Shown here one piece after another: positions 59,780 through 63,883 of a stretch of 64,000 nt of DNA. The notes under the pieces were generated by a model. That model had not been told where the DNA came from. It did no database searches and was given only the letters and a program-made list of their open reading frames with translations. The first letter of the stretch is position 1. Each line of letters starts with the position of its first letter. Source of the DNA: an uncultured Bacteroidales bacterium (GTDB taxonomy: Bacteria; Bacteroidota; Bacteroidia; Bacteroidales; P3); assembly GCA_905233475.1 (NCBI GenBank), contig CAJOEN010000002.1, forward strand, positions 27,311-91,310, in the 5' to 3' direction. Position numbers and translations under genes: made by a program.

Positions 59780-60019
59780 ATGAAGAATATTGTAGAAATA
59801 TCAAAGACACAGGTGGTGATGACATTCGTGGCCACATGTATTGAAACCACCGCCAGACGACTCAACACTTCCTATAAGGAAGTATATCAGCGGATGAAGC
59901 GCGTGGCCCTGATAGAACGATTTATACTCCCTCACTACGAGACGCTTCACAGTGAGAGCAGAGAAAATATTGCCGATGTATTGGTCGAATGTATGAACAA
60001 TTGGGAGAATGGAAAATGA
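59780..60019 (+). CDS. DUF3791-like small helical protein
   Basis: MKNIVEISKTQVVMTFVATCIETTARRLNTSYKEVYQRMKRVALIERFILPHYETLHSESRENIADVLVECMNNW; overlaps next gene by ATGA. Confidence 0.7.
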   Translation: MKNIVEISKTQVVMTFVATCIETTARRLNTSYKEVYQRMKRVALIERFILPHYETLHSESRENIADVLVECMNNWENGK

Positions 60020-60507
60020 GTGAAATAATTGTATATCACGGAGGAACCGAAAAGGTAGAGCACCCTACCTGCAAATACGGCCGTCGTAATTTGGATTTTG
60101 GCCAAGGCTTTTATGTTACAGACATACGCCAACAGGCTGTCGAATGGGCCACTCAAGTATCTGACCGCAGAAATGCAGTCCCCATTATAAATAGATATCG
60201 TCTAAATCGCGATGCTATTTTGGATGGGGCGCGCTGTAAGGTTTTCAAGGCATACGATAGGGATTGGTTGCAATTTATTGTGGCCAGCCGTCGTGGTGAG
60301 CCTGTGGCCGACAACTACGATTATATTGAAGGCGGAGTGGCCAACGACAGAGTGGTTGACACCGTTAACCTCTATATGGCAGGTCTGATGGACGAGGACA
60401 CCGCTCTGATGCGTCTTTCGCAGCACCAGCCTAACAACCAAATGTGCCTGCTTTCGCAGGTATTTACAGACAAATATTTGATTTTCGATGGAACAGAAAC
60501 AGTCTGA
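60016..60507 (+). CDS. DUF3990-like (ADP-ribosyltransferase-fold) protein
   Basis: MSEIIVYHGGTEKVEHPTCKYGRRNLDFGQGFYVTDIRQQAVEWA...NNQMCLLSQVFTDKYLIF. Confidence 0.78.
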   Translation: MSEIIVYHGGTEKVEHPTCKYGRRNLDFGQGFYVTDIRQQAVEWATQVSDRRNAVPIINRYRLNRDAILDGARCKVFKAYDRDWLQFIVASRRGEPVADNYDYIEGGVANDRVVDTVNLYMAGLMDEDTALMRLSQHQPNNQMCLLSQVFTDKYLIFDGTETV

Positions 60508-60757
60508 AGACCCTGTAAAATCGCCTGTAGTACAGGAGATTATCATGAGCAACCGCATTGGCGCCATCTCGGTGGAGTTAGCCAAACGACTGAATATTGA
60601 ACCTGTGAAAGCCCTGCAACTGTTTTACGAAAGCCAGACTTGCGCCGATCTGCATGACAAGTCCACGGGCCTTTACCTTTATGGAGACTTGTATGTGGCC
60701 GATGAATTCATGAGGGAGATGGAGTATGGGACGCAAGGTATTTGGCAGATGAGGTGA
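60488..60757 (+). CDS. small protein co-encoded with DUF3990-like gene (DUF3791-related family?)
   Basis: Overlaps the DUF3990-like gene by 20 bp; ISVELAKRLNIEPVKALQLFYESQTCADLHDKSTGLYLYGDLYVADEFMREM. Confidence 0.65.
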   Translation: MEQKQSEDPVKSPVVQEIIMSNRIGAISVELAKRLNIEPVKALQLFYESQTCADLHDKSTGLYLYGDLYVADEFMREMEYGTQGIWQMR

Positions 60758-60867
60758 AGAGGAAGAATGATGGTTTTGACGGCTTTAGAAGGCCCAAATT
60801 GTCTAATGGATTTTACCGAATAAGAAAAGTACATTATTTGCCGTAATGATTGAAAAAAGAAGGAACA

Positions 60868-62682
60868 ATGATTACCAATATTACGATAAAGAACATTAAG
60901 GGTTATGGTGATCCTGCTACAAGTATTGATCTTGAATTAAAAACGAACAAAGTCAACATTCTCTATGCCCCAAATGGCAGTGGCAAATCCTCATTAGCAA
61001 CAGCATTTGCTTCATTGTTACCACGTTCTCTCAAAGTTGAAAAAGAGAACATGTATCATAAAGATGATACACTTGAGGCTGAACTATGCATTACCCTTGA
61101 TACAGATGTTTTAGTTGCCACGAAAGAAAAGAACGAAATAGCCTCAAGGTTAAGTGTATATGTAATAAATGCAGGTTTAACCCCAGGAACCACTCAACAT
61201 AATATGGGGAAGTTTACGTCCGTTTCCGGTTATTTGGACATATCTGATGTTGAATTGGTTTCGAGCATACCTCCCGAAGTTCAACCAATTTATAGGATTA
61301 CTGAAATACGCCGTACGTTTGGCATAAATGGTAAAATTTTGCCAAATATGGCAGTTTTTCAAGATAGAGAATTTTGGAGAGTTATCGAAGCGAACGGCAG
61401 ATTGTTGACTTCTTTTTATCAAGCCAAAGGGAGGAAACAGTTGGTAGATGAAGTAATTGCCCATATTGCTACGCTAAAAGGACGGGAGGATATTGTGGTA
61501 GGGCAGATTGACGAAGGTTGGTTTGATTCTTTAGAGAACAATGATGTTTATTGTAATATTAAGTCAGTCTTTTCAAAATATGCAGATGACAATACTTCTT
61601 TGGCAAGTTTTATCCTAATCTTTCAACTACTCTTTTTCTGGGATAATAATAAAGATGCCATAAGAAAAGCTAATAAACGAACAGAATACGAGAAATACCG
61701 AGAGCATGTGGATCGGAATCTCTTGTTATTGGATTTAACATGGAAACAGATACACACAGAGGAAACGAACGGAAAACTAATAGTTCATTTCCCACAAGCT
61801 GATGAAATATCAAATGGTCAAAGAGATATTGTGACTTTTGTTGCTAAGATGCTAAGGTTTCAGACCTCTATAAATAATGGGAAAAAACATATGCTTATCA
61901 TTGATGAAGTTTTCGATTATCTTGATGACGCAAATGTTATCGCGGCCCAATGTTTCTTGACCAATTTCCTGAAATTTGACACCAATAAATTATATCTTTG
62001 TATTTTGACACATTTGAATCCATATACTTTTAAGAATTATATTTTTACCGATAAAAAGATTAACCATGTGTATTTGTTCAATACCCAGCCTACTGCAAGC
62101 CCAGAAATGAAGGCTTTCATTTCATTTCGGCAGTGCCTTGATCGTAAAGATGCAGTGCAATCTGCTTTATATAATAAGTTGTCTCATGACTTATTTCATT
62201 ACAATCCAGTAATAGTAGATTATTGTACTGACATTAATGCTTTAAAGCAAAATCATCATCTAAAACCGACATGGGGTAGGACTGTAGTATTACATAGTAT
62301 TTTGATTGATGAAATAAACAAGTATCTGAGTGGAGTGGCTGTCTATGACCCTTATGCGGTGGCATTAGCTGTTAGATTGCGGGTCGAGAAGATTATGTAT
62401 GAAAAGTTGCCGTCACAAGAGTTGAAGGACGGAATGGTAGATGAATGCATGACAAAGAATAAGATGAAATATTGTGCTGACAATGGATATGAAATGCCTG
62501 AAGTGTTTAATATTGTCAATGCTATTCATAATGAGGCTGATCATCTATCGTATAATGCCACTGAGGATAAGTATATAGAGAAACCCATGGTATATAAACT
62601 TCAGAACCGTTCGATACAAGCTATTGTCGCTCGTTTGTTCGAATGGAGAGGCAATCCGCTAACTACAGAAGTAATAGACTAA
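60868..62682 (+). CDS. AAA/ABC-type (SMC-like) ATPase with uncharacterised C-terminal domain
   Basis: MITNITIKNIKGYGDPATSIDLEL..LYAPNGSGKSSLATAF (Walker A); ISNGQRDIVTFVAKML (signature); HMLIIDEVFDYLDD (Walker B); ATG 60868 preceded by AAGAAGG; tracked start at 60850 is TTG. Confidence 0.85.
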   Translation: MITNITIKNIKGYGDPATSIDLELKTNKVNILYAPNGSGKSSLATAFASLLPRSLKVEKENMYHKDDTLEAELCITLDTDVLVATKEKNEIASRLSVYVINAGLTPGTTQHNMGKFTSVSGYLDISDVELVSSIPPEVQPIYRITEIRRTFGINGKILPNMAVFQDREFWRVIEANGRLLTSFYQAKGRKQLVDEVIAHIATLKGREDIVVGQIDEGWFDSLENNDVYCNIKSVFSKYADDNTSLASFILIFQLLFFWDNNKDAIRKANKRTEYEKYREHVDRNLLLLDLTWKQIHTEETNGKLIVHFPQADEISNGQRDIVTFVAKMLRFQTSINNGKKHMLIIDEVFDYLDDANVIAAQCFLTNFLKFDTNKLYLCILTHLNPYTFKNYIFTDKKINHVYLFNTQPTASPEMKAFISFRQCLDRKDAVQSALYNKLSHDLFHYNPVIVDYCTDINALKQNHHLKPTWGRTVVLHSILIDEINKYLSGVAVYDPYAVALAVRLRVEKIMYEKLPSQELKDGMVDECMTKNKMKYCADNGYEMPEVFNIVNAIHNEADHLSYNATEDKYIEKPMVYKLQNRSIQAIVARLFEWRGNPLTTEVID

Positions 62683-62755
62683 AACTGTTTTTGGAAGTAA
62701 TAGAAAGAAATGTGTTGACAAGTAATAGAATTATGGATCAATAAATTATGAATAA

Positions 62756-63883
62756 ATGAAAAAGTCGGATATTTTTTGGCAGACATACTTGAATCTTGAA
62801 AAAGAGGTCATAAATGTCTCCAAATACATTTTTGTAACGGATGAGATCACCACTAATCAAGGAGGGAAGGAATCCGTTATGCCCTGCGAATCGCAATTAA
62901 TGACATTTTCACCTTATATTTCAGATTTGTTGGTTCGTTGTTGTGTACAAATAGAAGCCATTTCCAAAGAGTTATATTATGAAAATGGTGGAACTAAACC
63001 CAGAGGGGATAATTCAATTTTCTTTGATGAAGATTGTCTAAAGCTGATTGATATAAAATGGGAAACTCATGATAAACGGGTGCTTGTTGTGGCTCCGTTT
63101 TTTAATCTAACAAAAGAAGAAAACCGAGAGTTGCGTCCATTGAAAGAAGCTCACAAAAGAAGAGGGACCTATTGGGAAAGAGCGTATCAGGCTGTTAAGC
63201 ATGATCGATACGGATCACTATCGATGGGAAATATCAAGGCGTTTTTACAAGCCTTGGCAGCACTTTATTTGTTGAATTTATATTATCGAAAAGACTCTTG
63301 GGTGACGACATATAAAGATTTGAGCAAGCAAGATTATAGTATGGGCTCTGCTTTGTTTGCCGTAAAACCTCCAAAACCAGGACTTTTGTGGTATGGGAAT
63401 CAACCGCAGAAAAGTGAAAGTCCTTTTGTCGTTACATACCAAGATGCTGATTATAAACGTATAGAGAAAATACAACAAGCCGAAAATGAAGCTTTGAATA
63501 ATTATTGGCAACAGCAGCCAGAATTAAATGAGCCTGAATTTATTTCTTTGTTAGCAGCTGCATTTGAAAGACAAAAACAGGATCCAGCTCAACGAGTTAT
63601 GTTGATATGGGAACTTGCGAAATACCGTTTGAATAAAATATTGCCAAATACTTTGCCATTTGAAGAGAGGAAAAAACGATTTATTGAAAGCGAAGCATGG
63701 AATTGTTGGGTTAACCAACACAACGCTCACCTTTTACCTGATGAAATAACGGAGGAAAACATTCAAAAAGAAATAAATTCAGTAGGTATTTGTTGGGGTA
63801 TTACGATAGAAAAAAGATTCCAAAAATATGAATGGATTCCTATTGCATTGAATAGTGGGATGTGCAAAGTATATATACCATAA
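62756..63883 (+). CDS. uncharacterised protein, HEPN-like N-terminal half, probable partner of the upstream ATPase
   Basis: 375 aa, same strand, 73 bp downstream; helical N-half containing RRGTYWERAYQAVKHDRYGSLSMGNIKAFLQALAALYLLNLYY. Confidence 0.6.
   Translation: MKKSDIFWQTYLNLEKEVINVSKYIFVTDEITTNQGGKESVMPCESQLMTFSPYISDLLVRCCVQIEAISKELYYENGGTKPRGDNSIFFDEDCLKLIDIKWETHDKRVLVVAPFFNLTKEENRELRPLKEAHKRRGTYWERAYQAVKHDRYGSLSMGNIKAFLQALAALYLLNLYYRKDSWVTTYKDLSKQDYSMGSALFAVKPPKPGLLWYGNQPQKSESPFVVTYQDADYKRIEKIQQAENEALNNYWQQQPELNEPEFISLLAAAFERQKQDPAQRVMLIWELAKYRLNKILPNTLPFEERKKRFIESEAWNCWVNQHNAHLLPDEITEENIQKEINSVGICWGITIEKRFQKYEWIPIALNSGMCKVYIP

Follow-up and report, generated by a model that had tools for sequence, protein, structure and literature searches.

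The stretch of DNA considered here (the window: 64,000 nucleotides from the genome of an uncultured Bacteroidales bacterium) ends with two neighbouring open reading frames, gene 1 and gene 2, which lie between a small gene module and a repeat. The features of this part of the window are:

59780-60757, + strand: three-gene module of DUF3791, DUF3990 (ADP-ribosyltransferase-like) and DUF3791-like genes, directly preceding gene 1
60868-62682, + strand: gene 1, an open frame of 604 amino acids
62756-63883, + strand: gene 2, an open frame of 375 amino acids
63884-64000: dispersed repeat of some 108 bases at the very end of the window, present about ten more times in the same genome at 95% identity or higher

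The two frames are separated by 73 bases, and a TTG start at 60850 would lengthen gene 1 to 610 amino acids. An earlier note, made from the sequence alone, had described an AT-rich, same-strand pair at 60868-63883; both frames do lie there, and the GC content of their region is 35-36%, compared with about 46-48% in the housekeeping genes upstream. The module in front of gene 1 matches the candidate defence models PDC-M13 A, B and C of PADLOC. The end of the window is the exact end of the 91,310-base contig (part of a 2.3-Mb draft genome), so the sequence following gene 2 cannot be read. The contig probably breaks at this point because of the dispersed repeat, which is probably the end of a mobile element where the assembly broke; several of its further copies sit at contig ends. 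A continuation of the island beyond the contig end, sought in the genome by way of the helicase of a related locus (L009), was not found, and a scan of the locus for promoters and terminators gave nothing better than shuffled sequences did.

The protein encoded by gene 1 consists of an N-terminal ATPase and a C-terminal helical domain, with the following features (invariance refers to 13 near-complete members of its family, most of which are 26-30% identical to the window protein):

60967-60993, + strand: Walker A, APNGSGKSS (residues 34-42; A34, P35, N36, G37 and K40 invariant)
61810-61827, + strand: ABC signature, SNGQRD (residues 315-320; S315, N316, G317, R319 and D320 invariant)
61891-61929, + strand: Walker B and D-loop, MLIIDEVFDYLDD (residues 342-354; I345, D346, E347, F349, D350, Y351 and D353 invariant)
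62008-62013, + strand: H-switch, T381-H382 (both invariant)
62155-62679, + strand: C-terminal helical domain of about 175 residues (about 430-604), a putative HEPN/anticodon-nuclease-like RNase
62374-62388, + strand: R503-x3-E507 of a putative catalytic triad, within RLRVEK (503-508; both invariant)
62542-62544, + strand: H559 of the same putative triad, within NAIHNEADH (551-559; invariant)

The N-terminal part is an ABC ATPase of the SMC/PtuA type. Its Pfam matches are SMC_N (2.4e-07), AAA_23 (1.4e-06) and related models, and in an AlphaFold model of gene 1 (mean pLDDT 77, from an alignment of six sequences) the nearest folds are PtuA of retron Ec78/Eco7 (Septu), AriA, SbcC/Rad50, and the heads of SMC proteins and cohesin, which agrees with the earlier description of gene 1 as an SMC/ABC-type ATPase of the anti-phage kind. 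The insert between the two halves of the ATPase is mostly helical in the model, with a single long helix at residues 244-289, and no CXXC zinc hook is present in gene 1. Only the ATPase head was matched when the PDB and BFVD were searched by fold (Foldseek).

The C-terminal domain is helical in the model, with low confidence at residues 556-571 (including H559) and 597-604. Ten of its residues are invariant in 13 of 13 members (H444, R503, E507, T529, K532, P544, H559, K577, L578 and N580), three of which form the putative triad; the pattern R-x3-E-x50-52-H is kept in every one of these members, with x51 in the window protein. The catalytic pattern of RloC is R-x3-E-x36-52-H and that of PrrC is R320/E324/H356, and mutation of any one of the three residues in the RloC of G. 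kaustophilus abolishes its anticodon-nuclease activity (PMC2610378). The R503-x3-E507-x51-H559 of gene 1 fits the RloC pattern, the spacing between glutamate and histidine being within 36-52. Random placement of ten invariant residues would give R-x3-E-x36-52-H with a P of about 0.0008, under a simple null that takes no account of composition or of the pattern having been chosen after it was seen. The surroundings of the histidine (NAIHNEADHL) resemble, at the level of a motif, RINNEFSHL of an RloC-type protein at another locus (L048). When the C-terminal region was compared by profile (hhalign) with 12 PrrC and seven RloC-type proteins, the similarity was not significant (E 0.34), with R, E and H in register in the low-confidence alignment, whereas the positive control in the same test, RloC against PrrC, gave an E of 1.5e-11 and spanned the region from the signature to R-x3-E. 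No significant profile match of the C-terminal domain to any nuclease was found. Judged by its invariant residues, this domain is probably the protein's own RNA-cutting end. The motifs that had been quoted earlier for gene 1 and gene 2 are all present, the ABC motifs and the triad of gene 1 being invariant in the 13 members, and conservation in the relatives of each gene indicates that these motifs exceed chance.

PrrC (EcoPrrC, the tRNA-Lys anticodon nuclease linked to the type I restriction-modification (R-M) system EcoprrI) has in common with gene 1 an N-terminal ABC ATPase, a C-terminal R-x3-E...H, the absence of a zinc hook, and relatives that are linked to R-M genes and to RhuM. It differs in size (341-416 amino acids, compared with 604), in spacing (E-x31-H in E. 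coli PrrC, compared with E-x51-H), and in the Walker B/D-loop (IDDPxSSLD, compared with IDEVFDYLD in gene 1 and IDE-x-FDY-x-D in the gene 1 family). In addition, gene 1 has no R-M gene next door in the window and does not match the PrrC model: this model of PADLOC (PDLC02360) gave no match for three gene 1 relatives at E 0.001, and is not among the best 25 of the 28 families listed for the gene 1 of the window. RloC (the wobble-nucleotide-excising anticodon nuclease; AAA_13; PADLOC PDC-S06) shares with gene 1 an SMC/Rad50-like head, R-x3-E-x36-52-H, and an I-x-N-E-x-x-H-L-type surround of the histidine. However, the CXXC zinc hook seen in seven of seven AAA_13 comparison proteins is missing from gene 1, gene 1 is smaller, its C-terminal profile similarity to RloC is not significant, and the PDC-S06 (RloC-type) models match it at the P-loop region only (about 50 residues). 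Direct membership of gene 1 in PrrC or RloC was rejected, since both the profile models and the profile-profile tests failed; it is the mismatch of the models, the different Walker B/D-loop and the non-significant C-terminal comparison that keep gene 1 from being filed under either name. By its sequence, gene 1 would be a PrrC/RloC-like single-protein ATPase-RNase, which most likely works like PrrC and RloC, rather than a proven member of either. The analogy with RloC and PrrC, drawn in the earlier note for both genes together, is apt for gene 1 alone, with its own R-x3-E-x51-H, and not for the pair.

The search for relatives of gene 1 covered 190 family genomes, about 390 from the order and 396 from the phylum, as well as plasmid and phage records; IMG/VR was searched with a profile. 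Occurrence is patchy (two of the 190 genomes of the family), and relatives were found on a plasmid and, by profile search only, in IMG/VR. PrrC/RloC-type ABC-HEPN proteins typically occur with R-M operons, RhuM-like genes and Fic/Doc-like genes (PMC3710099), and suicidal nucleases serve as back-up effectors beside BREX (PMC12839542). To judge by the genes around them, the relatives of gene 1 keep the same kind of company as PrrC/RloC proteins. Operon-like order is seen at L034 (type III Mod and Res, two short genes, then the gene 1 relative), at L024 (a C5 methylase, an 89-amino-acid ORF and the gene 1 relative, with overlaps) and at L038, an IMG/VR contig (GmrSD, PglZ, BrxL, a HARE-HTH-Mrr nuclease and the gene 1 relative, with overlapping ends). 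The last of these (L038:34-9092) has the appearance of a BREX-type locus with a candidate ABC ATPase-RNase as its last gene. Elsewhere, the gene 1 relative has beside it an N4/N6 methylase (L042), RhuM (L031), or Fic, Bro-N and GmrSD (L030), or has a methylase and a helicase about 3 kb away (L026). In roughly half of the gene 1 loci, among them the window, gene 1 has no R-M gene beside it; two HsdR-type genes (type I R subunits) are present on other contigs of the window's genome. Two proteins without a Pfam match, encoded beside gene 1 relatives, contain RN-x3-H-like stretches (L030:6108-7355, KRNMVDHEYPF; L036:5380-5934, AARNKFAHF) and are possible HEPN proteins.

A mechanism for gene 1 can be proposed as follows. 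The ATPase would dimerise on ATP and, possibly by contact with DNA or with an R-M complex, would silence the helical C-terminal RNase domain attached to it, whose active site would be a PrrC/RloC-like R-E-H triad. Any R-M partner would act in trans here, which is possible because the two HsdR-type genes lie on other contigs of the same genome. Blocked restriction, or the sensing of phage DNA, would then lead to an ATP-driven rearrangement that releases the RNase domain; the released domain would cut RNA, most likely the anticodon loops of tRNAs, and translation would stop. We infer each element of this scheme, i.e., the RNase activity, the tRNA target, the silencing and the trigger. Should gene 1 cut tRNA, the few RNase toxins that are gated by an ATPase would gain a compact, hook-free member, and the idea of a guard of restriction would reach beyond type I R-M to include type III R-M, BREX and orphan methylases.

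Alternatively, the C-terminal domain could be a docking or sensor domain instead of a nuclease, and the effector could be another protein (a linked methylase, HNH protein or restriction enzyme), as in Septu and PARIS. The solved structures whose folds come nearest to the ATPase head, i.e., PtuA (Septu, retron Ec78/Eco7) and AriA (PARIS), do work with separate nucleases (PtuB, an HNH protein, and AriB, a Toprim protein, respectively), but gene 1 is without such a partner here and has a C-terminal domain of its own. One gene 1 relative is preceded by an AAA ATPase and HNH pair (L029), and others by methylase or BREX genes; yet no single partner is conserved, and at four loci (L025, L035, L037 and L041) no recognisable partner was found beside the gene 1 relative. 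The lack of a significant nuclease profile match speaks for this alternative; the invariant R, E and H with the spacing of RloC would be unexpected in a docking domain. Such a division of labour is considered unlikely, without being far-fetched.

The possibility that gene 1 acts together with gene 2 was raised by the earlier note, which had read the two as an ATPase-plus-effector system and had named missing conservation of the gene pair as a finding that would speak against it. The two genes do lie close together on the same strand, both are AT-rich, and both are in accessory DNA. Gene 2 was sought in 190 genomes of the family and 346 of the phylum, in GTDB contigs, plasmids, phages and IMG/VR, and co-occurrence was tested by tblastn of both proteins against every retrieved locus. 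Gene 2 is absent from all 14 other gene 1 loci, as is gene 1 from all of the roughly 20 independent loci with gene 2, and among all the loci compared, the only genome with both is that of the window. Neither gene was found in phage records or in a search of IMG/VR for close relatives. Furthermore, the relatives of gene 2 adjoin different genes at each locus, and those of gene 1 carry R-M or BREX contexts of their own. The pair being absent from every other locus found, the co-occurrence test led to rejection of the pair hypothesis, and a two-gene defence system must now be regarded as very improbable.

Related islands offer an explanation for the arrangement in the window. At L009, an ART-type module (DUF3791/DUF3990) immediately precedes gene 2; at L008, a remnant of the DUF3791/DUF3990 module is followed by an unrelated gene and then by gene 2; and in the window, the slot before gene 2 is occupied by gene 1. 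L008 and L009 have in common gene 2 and a downstream methylase/helicase block. These differences in gene order look like the exchange of cassettes within a defence island, and gene 1 and gene 2 would be adjacent in the window because the slot before gene 2 holds varying material in related islands. The unrelated gene in this slot at L008 (L008:6251-7939) encodes a protein of 562 amino acids without a Pfam match. On balance, it is fairly probable that gene 1 and gene 2 are two independent defence-type mobile cargo genes that are adjacent by chance, and that gene 1 combines toxin and sensor in one complete protein with a PrrC/RloC-like triad. The case exemplifies how weakly adjacency at a contig end supports a system. 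Least credible of all is that gene 1 is a RecF/SbcC-type DNA repair ATPase and not a defence protein, for although SMC_N, RecF-like and SbcC-like profiles match its N-terminus, no curated repair family was matched above its cut-off, and the presence in only 2/190 family genomes, the plasmid and IMG/VR locations, and the R-M and BREX neighbours all speak against it.

Gene 2 had no reliable family match in Pfam, NCBIfam, PADLOC or PHROG, and the earlier statement that no named defence system could be matched holds for both genes. The conserved core of gene 2 is the first 200 residues or so, and includes two motifs:

62954-62968, + strand: E67-x3-K71, invariant across 17 sequences
63197-63208, + strand: K148-H149-x-R151 (KHxR), with K148 and H149 invariant and R151 nearly so across 17 sequences

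W140 and Y144 are also invariant, and residues 140-151 read WERAYQAVKHDR. The suggestion that gene 2 is HEPN-like found no support. The helical core, E-x3-K and the histidine motif are features shared with the HEPN superfamily, and the acidic Ex3[KR] motif is present as E67-x3-K71, a motif that is not specific when taken alone. However, at residue 142, where the arginine of Rx4-6H would be expected (two after W140), close relatives have R or K and distant ones have N, C, Q or D, and gene 2 falls outside the HEPN definition because this arginine is not conserved. In the model, in which the N-terminal half of gene 2 has a pLDDT of 50-86, Foldseek gave no significant match, and the best HEPN match (4nqf) was at rank 36 with an E of 4.6 and a probability of 0.13. 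A HEPN assignment was not adopted, since neither the sequence profiles nor the fold search gave anything reliable and the motif is variable.

Thirteen near-full-length relatives of gene 2, 62-83% identical, were found in Bacteroidota, Bacillota and Spirochaetota (a spirochaete MAG). In a tree, the Flavonifractor and spirochaete copies are grouped with full support, which suggests horizontal transfer, with the proviso that MAG contigs can be misbinned. The neighbours vary and include a SMODS nucleotide synthase (L017), AbiEii and HipA (L027), a reverse transcriptase (L013), AAA and DUF4276 genes (L008; similar in L018), DUF3990 and R-M genes (L009), and integrases. From this distribution, gene 2 appears as a mobile solitary family, unnamed so far, in varied defence neighbourhoods. 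Our guess is that it acts on its own as an abortive effector, with the E67/K71/KHxR core as its basis. Since gene 2 travels between phyla by itself and is located in defence islands, it makes a clear target for defence screens. A bolder proposal, which covers both genes and is offered as speculation that may well prove wrong, is that gene 1 stands for a lineage, so far undescribed, of single-protein ABC ATPase-RNases, in which the PrrC/RloC triad was reached from a different ABC clade and which serves as a suicide back-up to DNA-modification defences of several kinds (type III R-M, BREX and orphan methylases), and that gene 2 founds a new family of single-gene defence effectors with a KHxR active site, found across phyla.

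The KHxR motif is retained in short, core-only relatives of gene 2 (L045, L046 and L047). Two of these core-like proteins, L045:1399-1983 (194 amino acids) and L047:1189-1725 (178 amino acids), match the phage family phrog_19461; the former adjoins a HEPN-looking protein and the latter a small protein resembling an ADP-ribosyltransferase.
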